A stretch of DNA of 64,000 nt from Rugalucina vietnamica (taxonomy: Eukaryota; Mollusca; Bivalvia; Lucinida; Lucinidae). The position numbers and the translations under genes were made by a program. Shown piece by piece: positions 15 to 56,419 of the stretch. Each line of letters starts with the position of its first letter. Positions within the stretch are counted from its first letter, which is position 1. The stretch covers positions 45,308,760-45,372,759 of the forward strand of contig OZ024873.1 in assembly GCA_964017185.1 (NCBI GenBank). Direction: 5' to 3'. Below the pieces are notes generated by a model. The model was not told the origin of the DNA. It saw nothing but the letters and a program-made list of their open reading frames with translations, and searched no databases.

Positions 15-1694
15 TTAACTCTTTAAATGAACAAGAGAAATTACATTTTTTGAGGCTCTGATGTATATGCATCCAAAGATTTGAACCGTCGGGCATTCTA
101 TGAATAAATGGTTGTACGTTTCCACAACATGACAAAGTTCACACAGTGGGTCTTCTGTTAATTTCCATTTAAACAGAATTTGTTTACATGGTAAAATTGC
201 ATTTATTAACTTAAATCTGTATTCTTTTAATTTATTTATTTGTATTCCTGCCATTATTGACCTGCATACCGATTCCCAATATGTATTTGACGGCGTTAAA
301 TTAAATTTATCTATCCACAAGTTTTGCGCAATTGGTTTAACCACAGTTTTACTTTGTAAAAAGTTAAATACCAATTTATTTTGGATTAAAGTGTCGGATT
401 TTAGTACTATTTTGCGATCATTCTTCTCGTTAGCCAAAAAGAAGCAAATTTGAGTTTGCACATTTGTATCTCTTGAGGTGCGACTTTTTAGTATGTTTTT
501 CCAGTTTTCTGGAATCGCTAATTTGAGTTTATGAATTTCGCTGATCCAGTTTTGTCTATTATGCAGTTTTTGTAATATAAATTCCGCTTCAATTTCCCCA
601 GTTGGAGAAATGATATCATTTATATGCATTATGCCATCGTCTATCCAGTTTTTAAATAATAGCCAGTCCCTATCATGTTTTATAAAATGATTACCCCATA
701 TGACTTGTTTTCGTATATTGTTAAATGTTTTCGGTTCATCCATACACCACCCTCCAGCATTTACCCATGCCTCGAGTAGATTTTTATAAAATATCGGAAT
801 CTTTATACGTTTTAGGTTTTGAACGCATCCAAAGTTCATATTAAATAGAGCGAAGTCTTTCCCATATCTAGAAAAGTAAAATTTCGGAATTATTTTCCAA
901 TTCATGTCGTCTTGAGATATAAGCCTATTTACCCATTTTATTTGAAAAGTTTGCAGCTGTGTTTTAAGATCTACCATATTTAAGCCACCACTTTCATAAT
1001 TTTGCATCAATTGTTTTCGTTTAATTTTTTCACTCTTATCGTTCCATAGGAAATTAAATATAATTATTTCTATTTTCGAAATTATAAGCTGTGATACCGG
1101 TATACACTGAAGTAGATAGTTGCATTTTGACATGACGAGCGATTTTAGAACCACAATTTTTCCGTTAAATGTTAATTTTCTTCTCTTCCACGAATTTAGC
1201 AAATTTTGAATCTCATCTATTAGTTTATCCCAGTTGAGTTGCATACTTTCTTGCGTGTTTGTACTAAAATAGATACCCAGCGATTTGATAACTGTCATTG
1301 TAAAGTCTATGCCGTGTATACTTAGTCGATTATTTCGTCTATTTTTGCCTAAAAGCAGTCCTTTGGTTTTTGTTTTGTTTAATACCAGGCCTGATACTTC
1401 AGAAAACCGTTTAATTTCGTTAAGTAATATCGGTATAATGTTTTCTGATTCTAAAAAGATCGTAGTGTCGTCTGCCATTTGAGTTAGTTTTATTTCTTTT
1501 GATCTCCCGATTCTTATACCTCTAATATTATTATTGTTTCTTATGTTTTCTGCCATGATTTCTGCAGCGATTATGTAAAGCAAAGCAGATATCGGACAGC
1601 CTTGTCGAATTCCGCGCGATACTTCAAAACTACAAGACACCCATCCATTATTTATATTTACTATTATTGGGATGTTTGTATAACATTTTGACAA
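15..1694 (-). CDS. LINE ORF2, 3' part: rest of reverse transcriptase and C-terminal zinc knuckle
   Basis: This frame continues the RT of the 1648-3606 frame after a frameshift. There is no ATG at the junction (the first codon shown is TTG), which supports decay rather than a separate gene. It holds RGIRQGCPISALL (RT motif B), MADDTTIF (the YxDD-type catalytic box, here MADD), and a long C-terminal domain. Near the end CELCHVVETYNHLFIEC gives a C-x2-C-x6-H-x4-C zinc-binding arrangement typical of L1/Tx1 ORF2. The end differs from the usual Trp-rich tail, so the stop at 15 may itself be a late frameshift; the rest is outside the window. Confidence 0.85.
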   Translation of the reverse strand: MSKCYTNIPIIVNINNGWVSCSFEVSRGIRQGCPISALLYIIAAEIMAENIRNNNNIRGIRIGRSKEIKLTQMADDTTIFLESENIIPILLNEIKRFSEVSGLVLNKTKTKGLLLGKNRRNNRLSIHGIDFTMTVIKSLGIYFSTNTQESMQLNWDKLIDEIQNLLNSWKRRKLTFNGKIVVLKSLVMSKCNYLLQCIPVSQLIISKIEIIIFNFLWNDKSEKIKRKQLMQNYESGGLNMVDLKTQLQTFQIKWVNRLISQDDMNWKIIPKFYFSRYGKDFALFNMNFGCVQNLKRIKIPIFYKNLLEAWVNAGGWCMDEPKTFNNIRKQVIWGNHFIKHDRDWLLFKNWIDDGIMHINDIISPTGEIEAEFILQKLHNRQNWISEIHKLKLAIPENWKNILKSRTSRDTNVQTQICFFLANEKNDRKIVLKSDTLIQNKLVFNFLQSKTVVKPIAQNLWIDKFNLTPSNTYWESVCRSIMAGIQINKLKEYRFKLINAILPCKQILFKWKLTEDPLCELCHVVETYNHLFIECPTVQIFGCIYIRASKNVISLVHLKS

Positions 1695-3606
1695 AATTTA
1701 TGAAACGGTTTCCGAATCCGAATTTTTCCAAAGTTAGATTCATAAAATTCCATTCAATCGAGTCAAACGCCTTTTGGTAGTCCAAGAATAAGAGTACCCC
1801 GTGTAAGTTGTTATCTTCGGCATAGTCGATAATGTCCTGTATTTGGCGAATACTAAACCCTATAAATCTATTTTTTATGTAACCGTTCTGATCGGTACTT
1901 ATTATTTTTGAAATTACTTTTTGCAGTCTTTGTGCCAATGTTCTCGCTATGATTTTATAGTCCACGTTTAACAAGGTTATGGGACGCCAATTGCCTAGCT
2001 TAGTTTCGTCACCGGATTTGAAAATTAAACTTAAGATTCCGTGCTCTTGCGAGCCAGTTAATTCACCTTTATTTATAGATTCGTTTAAAGCGTTCATGAA
2101 CGGTTCTCTAAGTGTACTCCAGAAATTCTGGTAAAATTCTACAGACAATCCGTCGGAGCCTGGGCTTTTATTGAGTTTCATCGAAAATAGCGAATTTGTA
2201 CATTCTTCCAGCATTATATCTTGATCACAATATTGTTTGTCTATTCGTGTCAATGTGTTAGATAGACGGGAAGAATCAAGATAACGTTTCATTTTGGTTG
2301 TGTCACTGATTTTTGATTCGTATAAATTACTATAGTAATCAACTTCTTCGTTTAGTATGTCCGTGCTGTCAGTGAGTGTTTGTCTGTCCGTCGATGTCAA
2401 TTTGCATATATTTTTTTTAGTTTGGCGCGTTTTTTCAAGACCTAGGAAGTATTTTGTATTTTTTTCACCTTGCTCCGTCCATTCCACTCGGGCTCGAATT
2501 TGCGCTCCTTTTGCTTTATAATCATAAATTGTATCCAATTCTTTCTCTGTGATTATTATTTTGTTTATTAATGCTTCATTATTTTCGCCATTATCCTGTA
2601 GTTGATGCAGCGTGCTGAGCCTATTTTCAAGTGAGGTGCACCTATTTCTAATATGTTTTGCTTTCTGTTTTGAGTATGACTGAGTTGCTTCCCTTACGTC
2701 TAATTTGATTTTTTCCCAGGTCATATGCGGTGATGAGTTTGCATGACTCGCTGATAGTTTACTATTGTTTATCGTATTTATTATCAATGATTTATAGTCT
2801 TTGTCTTTCAAGAGGCTATTGTTTATTTTCCAAACCCCAGGACCTCTGTTTTCTTCGTTCATTTTTAATTTAAGCGATACTGCTAAGTGACTTGTTTTGC
2901 TTATTTGTGCCGGTCTTATGTCGCAGCTATGCACTTTATTTTCAATATCTGCCGATATACAAAAATAGTCGATTCTACTGGCTTCATTTAAGATTTGACG
3001 TTTCCACGTAAATTGAATTTTACGTTTATTTCTAAATCTCCAAATATCGATGAGACTCTTTTCTTTAAATATGTTTCCGAGTGAGTTACTTGCTTTTGTT
3101 TTTTTCGGTATTGTTCTATTAACACGATTTATCCTATCCAGTTTGTGGTCTAAAATTTCATTAAAATCCCCTGCTAAAATAATCGTGCCTTCAGCATATT
3201 CCGTTATTACTTCGTTCACTCGCTTAAAGAAAGTACTTCGATCCGTTATGTTATTCGGTGCATATATATTTATTAATGAAAAGGTTAATGTGCCAATCTC
3301 GATATTTACTAAAATGAGGCGGCCATAAGTGTCACAATGTGTATTTAAAACCTTATGATCAACAGATGAATGAATCAATATCGAAACACCTCTACTGTTC
3401 GAAGTACCTATCGAATGTAATTTTGTGCCATTAAATTGCTGATCAAAACTTGAAGTTATGTCTGCCGTTAAGTGGGTTTCTTGTATAAATAATATGTTTG
3501 CCTTTTGTTGCTTTGCCAATTCAAACACCCTTTTCTGTTTATTTCTATCTCTCACACCCTGTACATTAAGAGTCAATATATGCAAATTTGACTTGTCCGA
3601 TTTCAT
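1648..3606 (-). CDS. LINE ORF2, 5' part: endonuclease and start of reverse transcriptase (frameshifted)
   Basis: This 652-codon frame starts at an ATG at 3606. Residues 1-235 form an endonuclease/exonuclease/phosphatase domain: LNVQG near the start, QETHL (metal-binding Glu), GDFNEILD, RIDYF and TSHLAV near the end. It would nick target DNA to prime reverse transcription. The reverse transcriptase begins around residue 480, with KSPGSDGL, NWRPITLLN and FLDYQKAFDS, the last holding the first catalytic Asp. The frame stops just after FVKMLY, and the rest of the RT continues in another frame in the neighbouring ORF. The overlap at 1648-1694 and the resumption of conserved RT sequence point to a one-base indel near 1690 rather than a natural ORF end. 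Confidence 0.88.
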   Translation of the reverse strand: MKSDKSNLHILTLNVQGVRDRNKQKRVFELAKQQKANILFIQETHLTADITSSFDQQFNGTKLHSIGTSNSRGVSILIHSSVDHKVLNTHCDTYGRLILVNIEIGTLTFSLINIYAPNNITDRSTFFKRVNEVITEYAEGTIILAGDFNEILDHKLDRINRVNRTIPKKTKASNSLGNIFKEKSLIDIWRFRNKRKIQFTWKRQILNEASRIDYFCISADIENKVHSCDIRPAQISKTSHLAVSLKLKMNEENRGPGVWKINNSLLKDKDYKSLIINTINNSKLSASHANSSPHMTWEKIKLDVREATQSYSKQKAKHIRNRCTSLENRLSTLHQLQDNGENNEALINKIIITEKELDTIYDYKAKGAQIRARVEWTEQGEKNTKYFLGLEKTRQTKKNICKLTSTDRQTLTDSTDILNEEVDYYSNLYESKISDTTKMKRYLDSSRLSNTLTRIDKQYCDQDIMLEECTNSLFSMKLNKSPGSDGLSVEFYQNFWSTLREPFMNALNESINKGELTGSQEHGILSLIFKSGDETKLGNWRPITLLNVDYKIIARTLAQRLQKVISKIISTDQNGYIKNRFIGFSIRQIQDIIDYAEDNNLHGVLLFLDYQKAFDSIEWNFMNLTLEKFGFGNRFINFVKMLYKHPNNSKYK

Positions 3607-3772
3607 GTTTTAGGCACAATTAAACGGTATATTGTATATATTATATGAGAATCAGTTCGTTCTGTTTGTCGCATTTCATTTTAATCAATTGTTTTTATAA
3701 TATATTTCTTTCAAGTGTTTAACCACAGTTCTATGCAGACTCACGATAAGTCTGCCACAGTGCTTAGTATAG

Positions 3773-21257: not shown

Positions 21258-22049
21258 ATGAAAGCTAAAATAGGACTCTGGCATAAAGATGACATAAAGA
21301 TGACATATGTTTGCTTATGTGAAAACTTTCTTGAATGCAATGATAACTTGGGGCAAAACAATACAAACACTGTGAATAATAAACACAATAGCAGCAGTAA
21401 CATGAATAACAATACATCAAACTGTATGTGTAAAACTATTTCAGAAGTACTGTTACAGTCACTACTCTCACTGGCTGCACTTATAGTGATAGTGATATTA
21501 TTCCATGTACTTCTAAAAAGATTCAAAGCCTATTTGGTGCTTAGGCAGAAAAGACAGCTCTGGCTGAAAACTTACAAAGCCAGCCCAAAGAAATACACTG
21601 TGTTCTTAGCATTCTGCAGTGAAAATGACAACTTTGTGATGCAACATGTTTACCCAAAGTTAAATTCAGGCTTACAGAAGGTCTTGAAAACTGACAGTCA
21701 ATGTGTTTCGACTGGGGCTTCTGAAATCCGACCAGGGTTTCCCATTGCAATGGAAATAATCAGATGTATTGAGGAGTGTTCGGTATTTGTTTCTGTGATG
21801 ACTAACTCCTTCTGTCGGAAGTCTTGGTGTAGATATGAAGTAATGGTGGCGTGCTCCAATTTCAAACCTATCATTCCAATGATGTGTGGTAATGTTAAGA
21901 CAGAATTGATACCAACTGTGTTACATCCTCATTACATCTACACTCATGTGAAATGGACAATGTTGAATGGGGTACCAGTCATGACTCCGAGCTGGGATCA
22001 GCTATGTGACAATATAGTGAGATTAATTGGTACCAGTTCTGTACCATAA
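21258..22049 (+). CDS. TIR-domain membrane protein without leucine-rich repeats (TLR relic or adaptor)
   Basis: The 263-residue frame has an Asn-rich segment (residues 33-56), a transmembrane helix at about 68-88 (SLLSLAALIVIVILFHVLL) and a TIR domain from about residue 113. TIR motifs are KYTVFLAFCSEND (box 1), ASEIRPGFPIA (box 2, RPG) and KSWCRYEV. No leucine-rich repeats or signal peptide are visible, so the receptor ectodomain is missing or sits on an unrecognised upstream exon. The TIR is clearly diverged from those of the two TLRs to the right. It would signal from the cytosolic face through TIR-TIR contacts. The start codon is the first Met and is not otherwise supported. Confidence 0.75.
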   Translation: MKAKIGLWHKDDIKMTYVCLCENFLECNDNLGQNNTNTVNNKHNSSSNMNNNTSNCMCKTISEVLLQSLLSLAALIVIVILFHVLLKRFKAYLVLRQKRQLWLKTYKASPKKYTVFLAFCSENDNFVMQHVYPKLNSGLQKVLKTDSQCVSTGASEIRPGFPIAMEIIRCIEECSVFVSVMTNSFCRKSWCRYEVMVACSNFKPIIPMMCGNVKTELIPTVLHPHYIYTHVKWTMLNGVPVMTPSWDQLCDNIVRLIGTSSVP

Positions 22050-22885: not shown

Positions 22886-23628
22886 AACCCCCATTTACAC
22901 ATTCACGATTTTTGGCTACGGTGCCGCTACGATTCGCCACGATTTGTAAAATCGTCGTGTACCGTAGTGATTCGTAGTAGAACCGTGGTGAATCGTGGTG
23001 AATCTTGACGAATCGTGATGATTCGGGAAACTCCACGGTAGTGCTACAGAAGTTTTAAATGTTTAAAACATTTGTGGCGTATTGTGGCGAATCGTGGTGG
23101 TAATTGGGCGTGGCCTAATTCGTAGCGCAAACCGTAGCGGAATCTGGCTTATTCGTACTGACACCGTAGCTATATTCGCGGCTATTCATGAGAGATCGTA
23201 GCCAATCGTGGTGCTCCGTAGCGAAACCGTGGAATCTTTGACACCACGAACTCTCAAGATTCACCACGAATTGTGTACAGTTGTCCTACGAATCATCCAC
23301 GGTTTCGCTACGGAGCTCCACGATTGGCCACGATGGCTACCGCCGTGAATCGTACTAGTACCGTATCGAACCGTACAAGCACCGTGAGCATTCGTTGTGC
23401 CACCGTGGTTAATCCTCCTTGACCTTAGCGTTGCCGTCATGAATCGTCATTGATTCGTAGCGATACCTTACAGACACTGTACTAATATCATGGACATTCT
23501 TACTGGAATCGTATCACACTGAATATTTCCACTTTTCGCCATGATTCACCCTGATTTTTCTGACCATGAGAAATCCGAGTGAATTGTGGTGAATCGTAGA
23601 GAAAACCGTGAATGTGTAAACGGGGCTT
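22886..23628. repeat. Foldback-type element built of CGTAG/CGTGG/AATCG words
   Basis: The ends ATTTACACATTCACGATTTT and AAAACCGTGAATGTGTAAAC are inverted copies flanked by C-rich and G-rich runs. The 700-bp interior consists almost wholly of variants of GAATCGTGGTGAATCGTAGC on both strands. It has no coding frame. Confidence 0.65.
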
Positions 23629-23639
23629 AACTGATTTGC

Positions 23640-24950
23640 AGTGCTGGTTTGAACTTTATTTGAGTATTATCATGAGTAAATAAGCAAACCAAATGAGTAA
23701 CAGATCTACTTTCAAAATTCTGATCTACATCATTGTTTGTAATTGTCACTGCCTACGTTAGTATACTATTTTAAGGTGAAATTCTATCTGTAAAATTAAA
23801 GCTCTGTGTAAGAAACCTTGCAAATAGGTTTTCCGGTTACACAGCACACATGAATCTGATCAGTAGATTTAAGCAAAATCTGGAAATCCCCAAAAGTGCC
23901 CGAAAAGAAATCAAAATCCTTCCAGCACACAGGTATGTAACTGAGACTCTATAGCTCATATTTCTGTTAAACAAGACTCAGGTATGCTTTCATTCTAGAA
24001 GGAGTGTTTATTACTTATAGTCAGTAACCAGCAAATATGACTGAAAAGTGATATGAGCAACATTTATAGTTGCTGACATAACTTTCATACAGGAAAATCA
24101 AACTACTGAGAGAAGCATAAGGAAAGCGTGATTGTGATCGAAAAATATTTTAGGTAAGTGATCTTAGTATACTATCATATTGTTTCATTTAAATTCATTA
24201 AGTATTATTTTTAATGCACGTTGTGAAAAAAAAAAATGTAAAAAATAAAATCTTGAAATAATTGGACTCTAATCCGACAAATGAGCCATTTAGGTCATTT
24301 GTTTTCATACAAGGATAAATTTGAATCATATAAAAAAGTACAAGTAGGCAAAGATCAGGAAAAGGCACAATCAGAAAAAGACTCCCACTCCAAAAACCAA
24401 GGTGGGAAAAAACCAAACTAACAATCAGGTACTTATACCATGAAAACATTTCGTAAGCCGAATGAGCAGCTATTTTCCCAATAGGTGGCCACTCAGTAAA
24501 TACCTTAACTTAACTAAAAATATGCAAACATACATAAGGTGCCAACAGCACAAAAATGTTTTAAACACCAAGACATAAAACAAAAAGAACCACCACAGAA
24601 GTATCGACTTGGAACGATCAGTAACACAAAGTTACTGGCGGGTTTAAATCGATTTTATACGGCCGTAACCTCACCCTCAGCTTCTGCAGTGGTTCATAAC
24701 ATTTAGTTAGTTCTTCGGTCCTTGTGGTGAATCTCTAACTAGTAAATGAATCACCAAGAACAAACAAATAAATCATGATAAACATCCTGATGAATCAAAA
24801 ACCAGGACTCACAGATTCAGTAAGCTGCCCGACGATGGAGATCCCTGGGCGCCAAATAACTTACTAACTCCGGAGCTAAAGAAAAACATCAGTTGGACCC
24901 CAGTGGGCCAAGCAACAGACAAGAAGCTCCTGCCCCAACCAACTAAAATG
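23640..24950. other. No gene; probably includes the 3' untranslated region of the Naiad element
   Basis: A perfect 7-bp hairpin occurs at 24619-24637 (CAGTAAC / GTTACTG on the minus strand). This interval is where a selenocysteine insertion element would be expected; I could not identify one by eye. The left boundary of the retroelement is not visible. Confidence 0.4.
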
Positions 24951-24957
24951 AATAGCT

Positions 24958-26150
24958 TTAAGTCGGGGCCATCATGTAGTCTGACGCCCGACCCACCGGC
25001 GTGCAATTAAAGAAGGCAGCATAGTTTTCAACCGTGATTGGGTTAAAAACTAAGCATGCAGACTGTCGCATAACATTCAAGTTGTAACCTATACGTCTGT
25101 AACGTGTTATGATTTTTCTAAACTGAAAAGAAAAATCATTACTTCCTATAAGTTTCTTAAATTTGTAAACCAAGTCACCATAAAATTCTGGTTCCGAAAG
25201 ACCCTCACTTAAAAGCGTCTTTAACCCGACATTATATTTGGAAATCAATTCATAGTGTCTACGATAAAATTTAGAAAAGGTTTTTCGAAGTTTATGATAC
25301 CGATAGCCCTGTTGGAGAAGTTTGGCCGTTAAAGATTTATTTCGAGCGTTGAAGTCTGTAACATGATTGCAGACTCTAGCAAACCTAATAAGTTGCGAAA
25401 TGTATACACCATAAGAAGCACGACGACGAACGTCACCATCGCGCTTATCATAAATTTTAGAAGAAACAAATCCATTTGCAACAGAAAGATGTAGATCTAA
25501 AAAGGGGGCTTCTGTATCCGAGATATTGGCTTTGTTCAACTGTAGTTCAGATGGATAAATTTGATTGACCATACCTTCAAAATAAGGATTGTCAATGTTC
25601 AAAAGGTCATCGAGGTACCTAGAAGTGGAATTAAAAGCCTCGATAACATCAGCTTGATTATCATGGTTAAGAGAATCCATGAAATCTCTTTCGTAGCAGT
25701 ATAAAAATAAATCAGCTACGAGAGGTGCGCAATTTGTACCCATCAGAATTCCAACAATTTGTCTGTATAACTTGGTCCCAAATCTAATATAAATATTATC
25801 CAGGAGATAGGATAAGGCGTCGCACACATTCTGACATGACCAAAGTGTATACCGACTTTGGTCAGAGGAAGTGAAAAAAGCCTTTCTGTCATTACATGCC
25901 AAATAAAGTGAACCATAGTTTTTTAATGCCCTTTTGAAGGTCCACTCTATCAAATCCAGAAGTTTTTCTTTAATTAGATTATGTGGTAAAGTTGTATACA
26001 GAGTAGAAAAATCATATGTGGACAAGCTCGTCGCAAGGAACCCTCTACACTTCAATTTACTGAGCACCTCACCAGAATTTTTTATTGACCAAAACCAATT
26101 TTTATTTGAAGTTTCATACACTGTCTCACAGTATCTTATAACATGAGATT
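24958..26150 (-). CDS. Naiad reverse transcriptase, palm and thumb
   Basis: It holds YDFSTLYTTLPH (motif A with catalytic Asp), GTNCAPLVADLFLYCYE (motif B), RYLDDLL (YxDD catalytic box) and APFLDLHLSV, then thumb sequence YGVYISQLIRFARVC and FYRRHYELISKYN. The stretch KIYDKRDGDVRRRASYG appears to lack several residues normally found between KRD and the YGVY motif, so a small in-frame deletion is likely. It ends at a normal TAA. No TGA interrupts this part. Confidence 0.85.
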
Positions 26151-26159
26151 TGATAGCAG

Positions 26160-26486
26160 TTAAAGACAGGAAGTTAATAATTTAGAAAGTTCAGTAGTAG
26201 TACAAGAGCTAGAATTTGCAATAAATCTTGCTTTGTATGGTCTTTTGTGAAGCTTAGGTAACCAATACATCGTAGGAAGTTTGTCTTGGCCTTCATTGAC
26301 ACAAACAGAAAACTTAACAGGTAAATCGTTTAAGTGGGCATTAACTACAGACATTTCATCAGTATCTGTCTCCAGATAAGCCCTGGTACCATCCAGCTCC
26401 TGTTTTAAGGTGTTAACGTAGTGAAGCCTACAAACAACAACAACATTGTTTGCGGCTTTGTCTGCCGGAACCAAGACATAAGACAT
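26160..26486 (-). CDS. Naiad reverse transcriptase, N-terminal fingers segment
   Basis: It contains YVLVPADKAANNVVVVC, NTLKQELDGTRAY, PTMYWLPKLHKRPYKARFI and a Ser-rich turn (ANSSSCTTTEL). PADKA...VVV and LPKLHK..P..RPI-like wording is typical of Penelope-like RT. The frame ends at TAA (26160) after TSCL and continues in another frame (TAIKSHVIRYCETV), so there is a small indel near 26140. Confidence 0.8.
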   Translation of the reverse strand: MSYVLVPADKAANNVVVVCRLHYVNTLKQELDGTRAYLETDTDEMSVVNAHLNDLPVKFSVCVNEGQDKLPTMYWLPKLHKRPYKARFIANSSSCTTTELSKLLTSCL

Positions 26487-27012
26487 ACTTTCTGTGAAAT
26501 TCTTGGATACCCTGCTTCAAATGCCTAAATGACGATTTAGGTTTAGGAGGTAAAAGATTAGTATTTTGTGAATAAAACTGTATACGTTTATCCACGATAG
26601 TGAAGATACTTCTTTTCCATTCTTTAAGAGTATTATCCTCAACACCCTCTCGTTTACACCATTGATTACCGAAATCATTCAATGCAGATGCAATCTCCTC
26701 TCTACATTTATCGAAATTGATGTAGGAGGGGAATCTATATTTCGGACCTTTAGAAACAATTTTGCGAATTCTAGAATCCGAAATTATTTTTAAATTTCCA
26801 GTAACTATATGTCCGGCTGGTTGATAAACAAATTTTGAATCTTTACAATCTCAAGACTTAGGAGTATTAGCATGGATATCAAGATCAGAAACAAGTTTAT
26901 TGAAATTAAAAATAGTATTTCTGATCGGTTTATTATATTTGTAACAAATAATAGGAGGTTCTGAATTTTGGAAGTACGTAGGTATAGACTGTATCACTGA
27001 TTTATCCTGGAA
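26428..27012 (-). CDS. Naiad connector with UxC motif
   Basis: This frame resumes the element after the first frameshift: SVIQSIPTYFQNSEPP, RNTIFNFNKLVSDLDI, then KS-TGA-DC at 26851, KFVYQPAGHIVTGN, GPKYRFPSYINFDKC, NQWCKREGVED and PPKPKSSFRHL. The characteristic linker motif of Naiads is CxC; here the first Cys codon is TGA, giving UxC. It runs into a 7-base tandem duplication (TATGTCT twice, at about 26477-26490) just at the start of the RT. Confidence 0.72.
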
Positions 27013-27977
27013 TATGCTTGGTAAATCAAGTCAATTCCTTTATTAATGAAAGGAATTTTAATAAAACTTCTAATGTGATTAGATTCGGAATCGATAAATG
27101 GACGAAGAGCATGCTGAGTATAACATCTTGTTAACAGTGCAGCTTCATACATTTGATGATTTCTATCGTAAAATCTATTAGCCTCTGTGTCCAAGGAACA
27201 TAATACAGCAATAGGTAGAGAACTAAGATAAGACAGCATTGGATGTCGACCGTGAATCCTTAGTTTAACAGCTAAATCATTCAGGGAAGTGTTCAATTTC
27301 ATTGTAGCGCACCGTTTACGTTTGTCATTACCCTTTTTCCGTATACCATGAGATCTAGATTTACGTTTACGAGACTCTGAAAGTGTAAGTTCATCAAAAT
27401 CGGGCATTTTGGAAATATTTCCCTCATGGTAAATGTTGTCGTTAAATCCCAGTGGAAAGGGAGTTTGCAATAATTTTATCCATTTAAGTTCAGTTTCAAA
27501 TCATTTGATATTTTTGAATCTAACAGAAGAATTTTCATCATATGAGATTTTTTCCACTGGTTGAACTATAACATTATTGGGAGAATGACCAGTGCGCTTA
27601 AAATGCTGGTACAGAAAGGTATCATTATTTTTGGGTTTTCTGATTCTACGATAGTGCTCACCAAATCGTTTTTGCAAAGTTCGACAAGTTTGTCCAACAT
27701 ACTGCATCCTACAATTGTTTGTATTTCAAGTAAGAACATATACAAGATCCATTGATTTTCAGTCTAAATCAGAATCATTAACCACTGAAAATGTCCTACC
27801 ATTCACAGATGAAGTGATAGTAGTCTTAGAGCATAAATGATTGCAACAGTTGCACTTCTTGGCATTGCACTTAGAAATACTAGGGTACATTCTAGGTCTC
27901 TTGAACGGATAAATATATTTACGTAGAATTGGTGATTTAAGTGGAGATAACCTTATCTGAAGATTATTACGAAACAT
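26994..27977 (-). CDS. Naiad endonuclease region, read through three TGA codons
   Basis: From MFRNNLQIRLSPLK at 27977 the frame holds a cysteine cluster (CNAKKCNCCNHLC), NGRTFSVVNDSD, then TGA, KSMDLVYVLT, TGA, NTNNCRMQYVGQT (GIY-YIG core, with YVG), R and E residues (QKRFGEHY), and QHFKRTGH. Penelope endonucleases carry a CCHH zinc site. The second TGA occupies the first Cys of that site, and the Cys of NNC and the two His of QHF and TGH are the other ligands. The first TGA also aligns with a conserved Cys two residues after the Leu. The third TGA (27501) precedes FETELKWIKLL, a conserved stretch. The frame is lost near 27015 by what looks like a 5-base microduplication. Confidence 0.75.
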
Positions 27978-28573
27978 ATTAGAATTAGAAGCTCCGTGTA
28001 GATTAACAGTAGATGCCGAAAATAAATTTAAGAGGTGTCACCCTAACAGTACAAAAATAAATTTTGAAAATTGTTAGTTGAATGAGAAATCCGTACAGTA
28101 GACGCTGCATGCAACCTAAGGGGAGTTAATGTAATTCCTAATCTTTTTGTGATAGTCATAGTTGGGAGTTCTGTGTTGATACTGCCAAAAGAAGCGCGAC
28201 ACTCATACCGGTTATAGAAAAAATAATGCACTTATCATAATGCATCTAAAATTTCAATATTCAACATATCCTCCTCCCCCCCCCCCCCCCAAATATGTTG
28301 CATTATCATATTTCGTTTTATATTTCTAGCCCCAAAAAGTTCTTGTATAACTATAATTTAATGACAAATAATATTTAAAAGCTTGCTATGAAAGGATTCT
28401 TGTAGGAATATCTTTCTTTCTAGAGCAAACAACTGTCAATATATACAGAGCAGTCCCAAACACAGATATAGAAACCAAAAGAACAAAAAGATCATCAGTA
28501 GCAACTTAACAGAAAAGCAGCAAGGTATGTAGCTAACAAATGAACTCTGTTATTCTTGAATCATGTTTTCATT

Positions 28574-28695
28574 TTGAGTTTTACATAGAGAAACTTACAC
28601 GAGTGGTCATTTCATTATGATATTTATTAAACAAGCCTTCAGCGAGTTTAATAAATTTCATATGAAATGACCACGAGTGCAAGATTCATTGTATC
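28574..28695. repeat. Foldback repeat
   Basis: GAGTGGTCATTTCATTATGA and TCATATGAAATGACCACGAG are inverted about a loop with CCTTCAGCG, with outer arms also partly paired. The sequence to 29100 (ACGTCATTGAC and TATGACGTGATG words, one 113-codon frame of no known family) is probably part of the same mobile element. Confidence 0.65.
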
Positions 28696-30519: not shown

Positions 30520-30946
30520 CTCACAATACTTTCAGAAGAGTTTTTCTATAAAACAAATGGTAACCAGAATCAAACAAGAGTCTGCTAGTATACTGCAAAC
30601 AAATTGTAATCCAGGTCTTATATTTTCTAGGCCTTTATCAAGTTTCCACTTGTACATGTAATGATGAAAAAGACATGGGAATCCAATCAAAGACAGACAG
30701 GAGCCAGCTGATACAATGACATGAGAGTGATTCTGTGACAAAATTTGTAAGATACAAACTTCTGATTTATTAAACAGTATATCAGATTGTCTAGCTTTGT
30801 TTATTAATTATTTTATATGCATTGCACATGATCTCTTTCAATCTGATTTCCAAAAATATCATTTAAAGTTTTGTATAAGTAGCTTGTGACTAAAGTTCTG
30901 AATCCTGTAACTCTATGTCATTGCTTATTCTATCATAAAGCAAATA

Positions 30947-33046
30947 ATGATTTGGTTACCATTTCTGATCATGATACACTTGACAATGGCTAACACTATA
31001 TCAAATTGTCCAATCAATTGTGTTTGCTTTGTCACCAAAATAGAGTGTAACAAAACTCTGCCATCATTTATACCAGAGAATGTAACCAGTGTAACAGCTC
31101 TGGAAATTCCATTAGAACCTTACATGAATTTCACGTATACAGACTGGTATAGAGTTACTTATCTCTCTGTTAGTCTGGGCAATGGCAAAGAGAAAAAAAC
31201 TCTTAGACAATTAAAGGACTTCGAGTTTTTAGGGCTACTGAACCTGCAGCATCTGAAACTACCGTGTCACTGTCAGTTATCAGTAACAATTAATGCTTTC
31301 CATGGTCTCACAAATGTAACTGTGCTGGATCTTAGCAATAATAAAGTGAACTCATTGAATCTTGCAATACTGCCTGGATTAAATGGGCATAATATTTTAC
31401 CAAATTTATCTAAACTCTACCTCTCAAGTATAACATCTTCGAGAAGTCCAGTATTATATCTCTATCTTAATCTATATGACCTTCATACTGCAATGGAGAA
31501 CAAACCATTGAAAATCCTAGATTTCAGTGGCACAAACTTAATTTTAAACAGCCTCCCCTTTCAAAATCATACTCTACCACTACTTCCACAGGTGCATAGT
31601 CTAAATCTCTCTAATGCAGGACCTGCTGTGTTCTCTTTAACAATGGTTTATCAATACTATAAACAGAGACCAGAATCAGTGTTTAGTAATTTGCAAATGT
31701 TAGATGCCAGCTATCCAAACTTTCCTCGGTCACAACTACAATGTCAGAGATCGTATGACTACTACAAGCAGTTCTGTAGAACAGTTCCATTACCTGCAAA
31801 CTTCCTGCCTTCAAATCTTACAGAACTTCATATCAAGAACATCTTTGCATCTCAGATCCATGACCTCAGAGGAAGCTTTAATGTTTCCCATCTCTGTATA
31901 ACAACTGAATGCTTTTCAAAAAGCAAAACCATTTGTGTTGGAGAAAACTTCGAACTCCTAACAAAGCTTGATGTCTCAGACAATGCATTCACTTACATCC
32001 AGCCACAACTTCTACAGGCACTTACATCACTCATCTACTTTGATGCTAGAAGCAACATACTAGGACAAGCACTGGCTGATAGAACCTATGCTGTGCCGTT
32101 TTTTCATGCGCTGAAAAATGCTGAAGTTCTACTATTTTCTAAAAACAATATTACTTTCCTTCCCAATGTCATGTTGAGGTCTAACATGAAAGCCAGACAT
32201 TTAGACCTGTCTTATAACAAATTGACTTCTGTAAACTTTGGAATAAAATATCTAAGTGAACTCAGGATACTTGACCTTTCTCACAATAGACTGACCAGTG
32301 TAACTTCTGATATTAACAAACAAGCTCTTCTTGATCTGCTAGATCTGAGTTTTAACAGAATTGTCTCAGTAGATTCTGCTGATTGTGGAATACTAAAGAA
32401 TATACAATTTAGCTCAAATATATCTACCAATAATATGTCTCACAATAATAAACGGACAGAGCTCAGATTAGAGGGCAATCCTCTATCTTGCACTTGTGAT
32501 AACCTTTGTCTTTTTAACTATTTACAAGATCAGAATAACACATTTAACTGTACTTCAAATGGCAAAACACAAAATGTGGATTTTCTATTTACCAAACATT
32601 TTGATTATAGCTGTAAAAAAGGAATTGTAATTGCAGCATTTACTTTTTTCTCAATAATCCTACTAGTTTTCACTGTTTGGTTTATTGTATCAAAAGAAAG
32701 GCAACAGATAATACATAAAAGGCTCAAAGAAAGAGGTCTAGAACAGTACAGTACATCTAGAAAGAAATATGTTGTCTTTCTGTCATTTTCTGGTGATGAT
32801 TCAGAATTTGTCATGACCAAAGTGTATCCCCAACTTGAAGCTGAACTAAAGCTCATACTGAACACTGAATCAGACTGCGTAGCAACTGGGGGCACACATT
32901 TCCGACCTGGTCATGCGATTAAAGATGAGATACTGAGATGTGTTGAAGAATCATCAGTTGTAATCTTCTTTCTCTCAGACACTTTCATCAACAAATCTTG
33001 GTGTACTCTGAGGTACACAAGGCTTTCTGTGATGAGAAGCCAATAG
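30947..33046 (+). pseudogene. Toll-like receptor B, frameshifted in the TIR domain
   Basis: A single-exon TLR. It has a signal peptide (MIWLPFLIMIHLTMA), an N-terminal cysteine cap (C-P-x2-C-x-C then C), about ten leucine-rich repeats (for example VTVLDLSNNKVNSL, LRILDLSHNRLTSV), a C-terminal cap (GNPLSCTCDNLC) and a transmembrane helix at about residues 558-580. The TIR domain begins at about 607 (KYVVFLSFSGDD, box 2 HFRPGHAI). At SWC (about 33000) one base is missing relative to the intact neighbour, so the frame runs into a false tail of 15 residues; the true continuation is in the frame 32998-33222. The receptor would sit in the plasma or endosomal membrane and signal through the TIR. A sequencing error cannot be excluded. 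Confidence 0.85.
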
Positions 33047-33470: not shown

Positions 33471-33786
33471 TGAATATACTTGATATATTTCAGGTTGTCA
33501 AGGAACCAGCTTCGACTAGAAACTAAACAGGCAAATGAGGCAATGAAGAATCAAACACTTTTGTAACAAAAATTGTAAGCTACAGTATTTAAAGTTGATT
33601 TTTCCATCTAAATTCTAAAAAGGTTTTACACTTTGTAGTTATTGGCATTGATCACATATCTAAGTGCACTTATTAAAGTTAGGATATTGTTTCCATTTTA
33701 AGTTTTTACTATTTGCATGTTGTGTTCATACTTTTTATTCATCCTAAAACTTTTATTGTTAAACACAAAGAACAAATCACAAAAAA

Positions 33787-36021
33787 ATGAATAAGATCAT
33801 ATTTTTGCTTGTCATTGTTGTGACAATATCCAGCATTAGATCAGAGTGTCCTGGCCACTGTGTTTGCAGTGCAACTGATATAAAGTGTAACAAAACTCTG
33901 CCATCATTTATACCAGAGAATGTAACCAGTGTAACAGCTCTGGAAGTTCCACTGAAACCGTACATGAATTTTACTTACACTGACTGGCACAGTGTCACAA
34001 ATCTCTCACTGAGTCTGGGCAATGTTGTTTATAATGAGTCAAAGTCTCTGCCTTGGAGGCAACTGCAAGACTATGAGTTTACAGGGCTGGTGAGCCTAAA
34101 AAATCTGAAATTATTATGTCATTGTGGTCTCTCAATAAACAACAAAGCTTTCTATGGGCTAACAAATATAAGTGTACTGAATCTCAGCAATAATGAATTA
34201 TTGAATTCAGACATATTGGTAGGACTGAAGGGAGGGGATATTCTACCCAATATATCAGAGCTCTATCTCTCAAACATTACATACATATATAATCCAACTT
34301 TATCTCTTGATTTAGACAATCTCCACACTGCCATGGATAAGAAACCTCTAAAGGTTCTAGATCTAAGTAGCACCAACATTTTCTTTACCATCTATGAGTT
34401 TCACACTCCTCCTCCATCACTCCTTCCTCAGCTTCACACACTCAATATCTCCCAAGCTGGACCAGCTGTGTTCTCTTTAACATGTATTTACCAGTACTAT
34501 ACACACAGGTTAGAATCAGTGTTTAGTAATCTGCAAGTATTAGATGCCAACTATCCTTACTTTCCTAAGTCACAATCAGAATGTGAGGAATCCTATTATT
34601 ACTACTGGCAATTCTGTAGAACAGGTCAGCTGACTACAAATTTCCTTCCTCTCAATCTCACCGAACTTCACATACAAAATCTCTTTGCATCACAAATTCC
34701 TGAACTAAGAGGAAATTTCAATTCTACCCATCTGTGCATCACAACAAAAATGTTCAAAACAAATAAAACAATCTGTGTTGGAGCAAACTTTAGCCATATC
34801 CAAAAGCTGGATGTATCAAATAATTCATTCTCATATATTCAGCCTAAACTAATACGCCCATTTAAATCATTAAAACAATTAGATTTAAGAAATAACAAAT
34901 TAGGACATGCATTGACTGAATACAATTATGCAAGATCATTTTTTCATGCATTAAGAGGCACTGAGGTTCTACTTTTTCAAAATAACAGTATCAGTTTCCT
35001 ACCTAGTAAAATACTGAAACACAACACCAAAGTGAAAATCCTGGACTTGTCTCATAACAGACTGCCCTCTATTAACATAGGTCTCAATCCAAAAGTACCT
35101 CTTCAAGTACTTGACCTGAGTTATAACAGAATTATTACCATAGACTCTGCTGATTGTGAAATGCTAAAAAGTCTCCACCTCAGTTCAAACAAATCAAACA
35201 CCAACATGTCTCATAATGACAGAAAAACAGGTCTGAGATTGGAAGGAAATCCTATAATCTGCTCCTGTGAAAATATGTGCTTCTTTAAGTTTCTGCAGGA
35301 TCAAAATATAACATTAACCTGCAATTCGAATGGAAAAACTCAAAATATTTCTTTCTTATTTGTCAAACATTTTGAATACCACTGCAAAAAGTACATTGTG
35401 ATAGCAACTATTACAATAGATGGAATTCTATCAGTCTTAATAATCAGTTTTGCTGTGCCTTTTATAATAAAAGACAGGAGAAAAATGAAATTCAAAAAGT
35501 TAAAAGAAAGTGGAATAGCACAGTACAGCACATCAAGAAAGAAATATGTTGTCTTTCTGTCATTTTCTGGTGATGATTCAGAATTTGTAATGACCAAAGT
35601 GTATCCCCAACTTGAAGCTGAACTAAAGCTCATACTGAACACTGAATCAGACTGTGTAGCAACTGGGGGCACACATTTCCGACCTGGTCATGCGATTAAA
35701 GATGAGATACTGAGATGTGTTGAAGAATCATCAGTTGTAATCTTCTTTCTCTCAGACACTTTCATCAACAAATCTTGGTGTAGGTCTGAGGTACACAAGG
35801 CTTTCTGTGATGAGAAGCCTATAGTTCTGATGATCTTTGGGAAACTGAATTTGAAGTCAATGCCCAGGGTCTTGCGGAAGCATTATGATACCTTCACTCG
35901 GGTTCATTTGTCACTGGAGAGTGGAGAGTACGTTATGAGGCCAAATATGGAACATTTCTGTGAAACCATAGTAGGCCTTATTGGTAGAGGAGCAGACCAA
36001 GGTCATGCCTTAGAATTATAA
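33787..36021 (+). CDS. Toll-like receptor C, intact single-exon gene
   Basis: 744 residues. A signal peptide (about residues 1-18), N-terminal cysteine cap (C21, C25, C27, C34), leucine-rich repeats to about residue 480 (for example VKILDLSHNRLPSI, LQVLDLSYNRI), one C-terminal cysteine cap near 490-535, a transmembrane helix at about 536-558 and a TIR domain at about 588-730. The single C-terminal cap makes it a single-cysteine-cluster TLR. TIR motifs: KYVVFLSFSGDD, HFRPGHAIKDEI and SWCRSEVHKAF. Box 2 lacks the Asp of the usual RDxxPG. The Glu in WCRSE is the position that is catalytic in NADase-type TIRs, though most TLRs are not known to use it. It is a pattern-recognition receptor by family; the ligand is unknown. 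Confidence 0.92.
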   Translation: MNKIIFLLVIVVTISSIRSECPGHCVCSATDIKCNKTLPSFIPENVTSVTALEVPLKPYMNFTYTDWHSVTNLSLSLGNVVYNESKSLPWRQLQDYEFTGLVSLKNLKLLCHCGLSINNKAFYGLTNISVLNLSNNELLNSDILVGLKGGDILPNISELYLSNITYIYNPTLSLDLDNLHTAMDKKPLKVLDLSSTNIFFTIYEFHTPPPSLLPQLHTLNISQAGPAVFSLTCIYQYYTHRLESVFSNLQVLDANYPYFPKSQSECEESYYYYWQFCRTGQLTTNFLPLNLTELHIQNLFASQIPELRGNFNSTHLCITTKMFKTNKTICVGANFSHIQKLDVSNNSFSYIQPKLIRPFKSLKQLDLRNNKLGHALTEYNYARSFFHALRGTEVLLFQNNSISFLPSKILKHNTKVKILDLSHNRLPSINIGLNPKVPLQVLDLSYNRIITIDSADCEMLKSLHLSSNKSNTNMSHNDRKTGLRLEGNPIICSCENMCFFKFLQDQNITLTCNSNGKTQNISFLFVKHFEYHCKKYIVIATITIDGILSVLIISFAVPFIIKDRRKMKFKKLKESGIAQYSTSRKKYVVFLSFSGDDSEFVMTKVYPQLEAELKLILNTESDCVATGGTHFRPGHAIKDEILRCVEESSVVIFFLSDTFINKSWCRSEVHKAFCDEKPIVLMIFGKLNLKSMPRVLRKHYDTFTRVHLSLESGEYVMRPNMEHFCETIVGLIGRGADQGHALEL

Positions 36022-54903: not shown

Positions 54904-56419
54904 ACCAGAGGACCAATGGTCCTGTAAACGCTCACCTGAGATCTGCTGCATATACCAATAAACATGTTTGAATATCATGGTATTTAACTCCAGTGCAGGG
55001 GCAGATGAAGCCCTAGGGCCATTTTTTTTTTCAGAATCTTCAATATTCTGTCCATTTGCCAATTTCCTGCTGGCATTTCCCTTCAAATGACATTTTAACA
55101 GTTTTCCCAATTCAAATGCATAGGCAACCCATGTTGACCTTGCCATAAACTTGGTCAAGGTCATCACAGGGTCATGATTTATATATACATTGGAGTACTT
55201 TAGCCATCGATGCTTCAAGCCAAGTTTCCTTGAAATCAGTCTATTGGTTTCAGAGAAGAAGATTTTTGATGGGTTTTTACCATATATGGGCATGGCGGCC
55301 ATCTTTGTCATGTGACCTAGATTATTTATATATACATTGATTCCCCCATTCTATAGCTGCTTCACATAAAATGTGGCTTTGATTGGCCAAGCGGTTTCAG
55401 AGGAGAAGACGTTTGAATATTATGGAAATATATGTGTATAATTGCAGCGGGGTGGGGGCACATGAGTCCCTGGGGTCCAATTTTTTTCAGAACCATTAAT
55501 ATTCAGTCCTACTTCCCATTTCCTGCAAGACTTTCACTTTAAATTACATTTTAAAAGTTTTCCCCATTCAATTCATTGGCTACCTATGTTGACCTTGCCG
55601 TAAAATAGGTCAAGGTCATCACAGGGTCATGATTTATATATACATTGTAGTGCTTGAGCCATCGATGCTTCATGCCAAGTTTTGTTGAAATTGGTCCACC
55701 GGTTCTGGAGAAGAAGATTTTTGAAGGGTTTTTACCATATATGGGCATGGTGGGCATCTTGGTCATGTGACCTGGATTTTTTATATACATATTTGTTACC
55801 TCTTCCTACTGATGCTTCACATAAAATTTGGCTTTGATTGGCCAAGTGGTTTCAGAGGAGAAGACGTTTGAATATTATGGAGATATACATGTATATTGCC
55901 CCGGGGTGGGGGCACATGAGCCCCTAGGGTCCTTTTTTTTTTTCAGAATCATTAATATTCAGTCCTACTGCCCATTTCCTGCAAGACTTTCACTTCAAAT
56001 GACATTTTAAAAGTTTTCCCCATTCAAATGCATTGGCGACCTATGTTGACCTTGCAGTAAAATAGGTCAAGGTCATCACAGGATCATGATTTATATATAC
56101 ATTGTAGTGCTTGTGCCATTAATGCTTCATGCCAAGGTTCGTTGAAATCGGTCCACCGGTTCTGGAAAAGAAGATTTTTGAAGGGTTTTTACCATATATG
56201 GGCATGGCGGCCATCTTGGTCAAGTGACCTGGATTTCTTATATATACATTTGTTCCCCCTTCCTAAAGATGCTTCATATGAAATTTGGCTTTGATTGGCC
56301 AAGCGGTTTCAGAGGAGAAGATCTTTGAAATTGTGGACGGACGGACGGACGACGGACGGACGCCGGATCATGGCCATCCTATAAGCTCACCTTGTGAGCC
56401 TAACGGCTCAGGTGAGCTA
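54904..56419 (+). mobile_element. Family H element, copy E
   Basis: Full-length copy: start ACCAGAGGACCAATGGTCCT; monomer markers at about 55278, 55738, 56197; GGAC tract 56337-56362; 3' hairpin ending CTAA. Confidence 0.82.

Follow-up and report, generated by a model that had tools for sequence, protein, structure and literature searches.

Naiads are reportedly permuted Penelope-like retroelements (PLEs) in which the endonuclease precedes the reverse transcriptase (RT); as Craig, Yushenova, Rodriguez and Arkhipova are said to have described in 2021, they carry a CxC linker and a CCHH-like pattern, and those of clams and spiders encode multi-selenocysteine proteins. Pseudo-long terminal repeats (pseudo-LTRs), a tandem arrangement and target duplications are usual for Naiads but not universal in single copies. 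The AUGA:GA and AAR motifs are named as conserved features of the selenocysteine insertion sequence (SECIS) in the available part of PMC8704476, and excerpts of PMC8310308 place the cellular SECIS counterparts all in the 3′ untranslated region (3′ UTR), with fowlpox virus GPX4 as the exception. Here we analyze a minus-strand protein frame in a 64,000-nucleotide stretch of the genome of the bivalve Rugalucina vietnamica (GCA_964017185.1, contig OZ024873.1, positions 45,308,760 to 45,372,759 of the forward strand; hereafter, the window). The frame very probably belongs to a decayed copy of a Naiad-type PLE that encoded a multi-selenocysteine protein and carried its own SECIS. An earlier note on this DNA had read it as a decayed selenoprotein Naiad, and this reading was supported by the pattern of the stops, the nuclease-first domain order, a UxC linker and a SECIS candidate.

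The frame opens with an ATG at 27977, closes with a TAA at 24960-24958 and comprises 1003 codons in four pieces, the present copy being broken by three frame changes. The pieces, the in-frame TGA codons (U in the translations) and the terminal stop are as follows.

27033-27977, minus strand: piece A, 315 codons, TGA-only stops; start of the frame, Cys-rich N-terminus and GIY-YIG endonuclease (LVYVLTU...QYVGQT...RFGEH...ETELKWI)
27759-27761, minus strand: TGA 1, within DLDUKSMDLVYVLTU, 11 residues ahead of TGA 2
27726-27728, minus strand: TGA 2, within VLTUNTNNC; candidate first ligand of what we take to be a CCHH zinc site
27501-27503, minus strand: TGA 3, within RFKNIKUFETELKWI; ancestral residue uncertain
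26494-27030, minus strand: piece B, 179 codons with one TGA and no further stop; linker between endonuclease and RT (LDLPSIFQDKSV...SUDCKDSKFVYQPAGHIVTGNL)
26851-26853, minus strand: TGA 4, opening the CxC motif of the linker, read U-D-C
26166-26489, minus strand: piece C, 108 codons, stop-free; N-terminal part of the RT by motif reading (PADKAANNVVVV, LPKLHKRPY)
24961-26163, minus strand: piece D, 401 codons, stop-free; remaining RT by motif reading (STYDFSTLYTTLP, GILMGTNCAP, RYLDDLL, APFLDL) and C-terminus
24958-24960, minus strand: TAA stop codon of the frame, which doubles as three unpaired bulge bases of the SECIS candidate

Along the 1003-codon path there were four in-frame stops, every one of them TGA, and neither TAA nor TAG occurred. 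Read in its other two frames, this DNA contained 44 stops (18 TAA, 15 TGA and 11 TAG) and 131 stops (64, 43 and 24, respectively). The frame changes were set by protein sense rather than by alignment, and fall between 27031 and 26996, between 26516 and 26428, and between 26181 and 26160. Because the switches are delimited by six stops that lie off the path (TGA at 27033-27031, 26996-26994 and 26519-26517, TAG at 26430-26428, and TAA at 26184-26182 and 26162-26160), the count of four TGA codons hinges on where the frame changes are placed. With these three changes, the claim that the frame is interrupted by TGA only, at four given sites, was confirmed (the earlier note had cited the lower end of each codon), and the stop pattern is a real feature of this DNA.

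The Pfam family PF01541 (GIY-YIG) matched the 216 residues encoded by 27977-27330 with 27.0 bits when TGA was read as Cys and with 23.7 bits when it was read as X, the curated cut-off being 22.6. Downstream on the same strand and path, at 26489-24961, lie the motifs STYDFSTLYTTLP, MGTNCAP, RYLDDLL and APFLDL, from which we take this part to be an RT, probably of the Penelope kind. The minus-strand frame has both the UxC linker and the nuclease-first order of the original proposal. The linker tripeptide U-D-C begins at 26853 and equals C-x-C only if TGA stands for selenocysteine (Sec) or Cys; it sits at the place of the CxC motif that we take to be a Naiad feature.

To the claim that the TGAs fall on conserved cysteines, the four sites gave different answers. 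Tool-based support for Cys comes from one site, TGA 2, through the preference of the PF01541 profile: when the 67-residue piece around it was scored, Cys ranked first of nine residues tried (28.2 bits), 1 bit above Ser (27.2), followed by Lys (25.5), X (25.2), Ala and Arg (24.9 each), Val (24.1), Gly (23.9), Leu (23.8) and Trp (23.7). This residue may open a CCHH pattern in the endonuclease, since it begins a U-x4-C followed by His residues, which may bind zinc. TGA 4 gives the UxC linker, and TGA 1 matches what is presumably the Cys position of canonical PLE endonucleases, whereas TGA 3 falls on no named Cys. AlphaFold2 models made without an alignment had mean predicted local distance difference test values of 32.8 and 35.9, and the model at 32.8 was too poor for zinc geometry to be read from it.

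A SECIS candidate was detected at the end of the frame.

24916-24983, minus strand: SECIS candidate, 68 nt; full-length match to Rfam SECIS_1 (27.7 bits), with support from the fold and from a structural scan

In a permissive search of 23900-25100 against 4227 Rfam families, SECIS_1 was the best of 9 matches and lay on the coding strand (E 0.006, and 0.0005 in a search of 101 nt); the former value corresponds to a single-family E of about 1e-6 in these 1.2 kb when the all-family E is divided by the number of families. The candidate consists of helix I (CAGAC/GUCUG), AUGA at 24975-24972 and GA at 24929-24928, a helix II of 9 pairs, a UAA(A) bulge and a short helix III. Its minimum free energy (MFE) structure had the SECIS shape with an open AUGA/GA region and both helices I and II (−23.5 kcal/mol, z −3.24), and 1 of 200 shuffled sequences was as stable. 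In SECIS elements the AAR motif lies 11-12 nt beyond AUGA; here, AAA is found at 24959-24957, 12 nt past AUGA. The UAA stop codon itself supplies the bulge bases 24960-24958, and its two As and the A that follows make up the AAR motif. We also scanned both strands for places where AUGA or GUGA, AA and GA were unpaired and helices I and II were present in the MFE structure, and called a match strong when the helices had at least 9 and at least 5 pairs and the energy was −23 kcal/mol or lower. Three places in the window matched, among which only 24983-24916 was strong, and 0 of 54 matches from 31 randomised windows of the same dinucleotide make-up reached this level; because the cut-off for strong matches was set around this element, the control speaks to rarity and gives no formal p-value.

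The earlier note had proposed to look for a SECIS on the minus strand from 24957 to about 24200, downstream of the frame. The strand was as expected, but the candidate lies across the stop codon rather than in that interval. By score, fold and control, the 3′ region of this copy does hold a SECIS candidate, the absence of which would have spoken against a selenoprotein. The frame ends in UAA and not in UGA, and the accessible portion of PMC6769590 counts a non-UGA stop as a feature of selenoprotein genes. As the same portion reports in-frame SECIS elements that were functional in mammalian cells, and as excerpts of PMC8310308 provide the fowlpox precedent, a position straddling the stop codon is compatible with function.

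The intact element would have encoded a single protein with an N-terminal GIY-YIG endonuclease, a short CxC linker and a C-terminal telomerase-like RT. UGA would be read as Sec at two Cys positions of the endonuclease, at one position in the U-x-C linker and possibly at a fourth site. Bound to the AUGA/GA kink, SECISBP2 would bring the Sec-specific elongation factor to each upstream UGA, and ribosomes that had decoded all of the UGAs would terminate at the UAA inside the SECIS. Because the UAA lies inside the SECIS, each finished round of translation would open the hairpin, which, judging from this position, would have to refold before the next round. We suggest only tentatively that the stop codon of the element's protein also serves as part of the invariant AAR motif of the SECIS, so that termination and recoding share bases and translation unfolds the signal that permits it.

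To estimate how often decay by itself would give a TGA-only pattern, we enumerated the one-base changes in the 1003 codons under four mutation settings. Under one-mutation decay a new stop was TGA with a probability of 0.28 to 0.43, depending on the setting, and four TGAs out of four had a probability of 0.006-0.033. When at least three of the four were also required to arise from Cys codons, the probability was 1.4e-4 to 3.1e-4, a figure that presupposes that three of the sites were once Cys. With CpG decay, Arg codons were the largest single source of TGA, accounting for 0.171-0.274 of stop mutations, against 0.045-0.056 from Cys codons.

Three other explanations were weighed. The first is a variant of the selenoprotein Naiad rather than an exclusive alternative: three of the Sec codons would be real, and the TGA at 27503-27501 would be a later nonsense mutation. 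Such a mixed origin is in keeping with the place of TGA 3, which belongs to none of the named cysteine motifs, and with the lead of Arg codons among the sources of TGA under CpG decay; against it, clam Naiads reportedly carry several Sec residues, and this family may have a cysteine at the TGA 3 position. We consider the mixed case a serious candidate, somewhat less likely than not. The second explanation is ordinary pseudogene decay of a Cys-encoding Naiad, in which all of the TGAs would be chance nonsense mutations and the SECIS a chance hairpin. The copy is indeed decayed, with its three frame changes; four TGAs out of four are not extreme when taken alone; TGA 3 is off any known Cys; and the SECIS scores below the Rfam cut-off while loose SECIS patterns are common. 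However, at least three TGAs would rarely come from Cys codons by chance, given the site assignments; a change from a Cys codon to TGA requires a transversion; and an independent SECIS candidate, of a strength that no match in the randomised windows equalled, stands on the same strand, where this frame ends. Because of the TGA and Cys figures and of this independent candidate, chance decay is improbable. The third explanation, general reassignment of TGA in the host to Trp or another residue, would fit TGA being the only in-frame stop type of the element and the fact that five other long frames in the window all end in TAA or TAG, but we regard it as exceedingly unlikely, although the grounds within the window are weak: animals are not known to depart from the standard code in their nuclear genes, whole animal-type domains are encoded without TGA in frames of 264 to 753 codons, and the five frames (2944 codons including stops, with 37 TGG and 77 TGT or TGC) contain no internal TGA, a zero that arises by construction because they had been selected as open under the standard code.

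The selenoprotein Naiad thus remains the preferred reading, and several observations weigh against it. The longer reading of 350 residues, with U as C, had no Pfam match at E 1 and only trimmed pieces matched, for which reason the PF01541 match is modest. TGA 3 is on no nameable cysteine motif and may be plain decay. No RT family of Pfam or NCBIfam matched the RT pieces searched, and searches of the PDB returned no related solved chain and one unrelated weak match. The 27.7 bits of SECIS_1 are below the Rfam gathering cut-off of 35, and because of this score threshold, which is not a structural feature, we speak of 24983-24916 as a SECIS candidate. The all-family E of the same match was 0.32 in the search of the whole 64 kb, in which 5 of 21 matches ranked higher. 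A looser pattern scan found 19 SECIS-like places in the window, compared with 16.6 on average in 20 randomised windows; a stricter setting found 4 compared with 3.1; because the loose scan gave no clear excess, the pattern alone proves nothing. Pseudo-LTRs or a target duplication were not found around the element: the 3′ and 5′ sides shared weak matches only (best blastn E 0.079) and no exact 10-mer was common to 24001-24960 and 27961-28450, features that a decayed or shortened copy may lack. Finally, no homologue was found in the collections searched.

Scans of viral contig and genome contig collections returned no relatives of the element. In one viral contig scan, 8 stretches fitted the peptide pattern and none coded for a relative; the sole match of another viral contig scan was dropped since its frame, judged by reading, resembles that of a phage-type DNA polymerase. 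One genome contig scan gave 7 pattern matches and no relative, and another gave none. Within the window, blastn found no second copy, and tblastn gave one 21-residue match (E 0.28) besides the element itself.

Other SECIS-like places were also inspected. A second one at 24308-24270 (minus strand), found by the loose scan only, was rejected, being absent from the three places of the structural scan and having no SECIS family match in Rfam. On the same strand, the loose pattern matched one dispersed host repeat (AAATGTCATTTRAAGTGAAWGTCTTG...) five times, at 55993, 49072, 43328, 17587 and 17132, and all five failed the structural scan. The type-P1 twister ribozyme matched weakly at 24587-24650 (minus strand), within what is presumably the 3′ UTR: the score was 23.3 bits against a cut-off of 67.2, with E values of 0.031 in 1.2 kb and 1.7 in 64 kb. 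This place has the 5′ core, a 7-pair hairpin and a UCCAAG loop, and its 3′ core is poor; it may be a chance match or a decayed ribozyme.

Just upstream of the element, at 28590-28687, lies a hairpin resembling a miniature inverted-repeat transposable element, an inverted repeat with 26-nt arms (85 percent complementary) and an inner 17-nt pair (94 percent complementary) that also gave weak matches to several microRNA models. A further inverted repeat at 23195-23334 has 39-nt arms that are 95 percent complementary and is near short tandem repeats of 10-nt units. On the plus strand, a TIR protein frame is found at 21258-22049, and two frames of the leucine-rich repeat (LRR)-TIR, or Toll-like receptor, type at 30911-33046 and 33763-36021; by eye the latter are close tandem paralogues, the first of which ends abruptly inside its TIR domain. 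A long interspersed nuclear element (LINE) with Exo_endo_phos and RVT_1 domains occupies 15-3609 on the minus strand, its RT being divided over two overlapping frames. Because of the LRR-TIR receptor-like frames, the TIR frame and the LINE nearby, the surroundings are animal.

If the selenoprotein Naiad reading is correct, a transposable element would need host selenium to make its nuclease-RT protein, in which selenium may occupy a metal site. If the stop codon and the AAR motif indeed share bases, selenium supply, ribosome load and output of retroelement protein could be linked in one feedback. As an element that combines a SECIS, a stop codon and several UGAs in a compact form, it would be a handy test case for the relation between ribosome passage through a SECIS and recoding. 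Literature searches, judged by the openings of abstracts, surfaced no paper on Sec in PLEs; PMC9912274, in the part seen, mentions both selenocysteine and Penelope, unrelated to each other. Given the 3′ UTR rule and its fowlpox exception in the excerpts of PMC8310308, a SECIS across the stop codon would be an unusual placement. This placement may be a new detail, Sec-encoding Naiads being reportedly already known.

The window element shares with Naiads, as these are reportedly organised, the domain order and the CxC linker and probably also the CCHH-like pattern and multiple Sec residues, and nothing that was tested sets it apart from them. Searches of Rfam listed no hammerhead ribozyme among their matches. 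Selenoprotein P is a secreted selenium protein, to which the element can be compared in its use of UGA. Canonical Penelope and Poseidon elements, as presented in the accessible parts of PMC3846280 and PMC11167929, likewise join a GIY-YIG endonuclease and a telomerase-related RT in one frame. The Poseidon element in the available text of PMC11167929, however, has a C-terminal endonuclease and a hammerhead ribozyme, whereas the window element has its endonuclease at the N-terminus and had no hammerhead among its listed matches. According to the portions of PMC5133445 and PMC8704476 at hand, selenoprotein P resembles the element in that several UGAs are translated as Sec in one message, but the mammalian mRNAs of selenoprotein P carry two SECIS elements in their 3′ UTR, whereas the window retroelement has one supported SECIS. 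The GPX4-like selenoprotein of fowlpox virus, as excerpted from PMC6769590 and PMC8310308, likewise has a SECIS that is not wholly in the 3′ UTR and is traversed by ribosomes. In the fowlpox gene, however, the SECIS lies within a frame with one in-frame UGA, whereas in the window element the candidate straddles the end of a frame with four, and the stop codon feeds the AAR motif.

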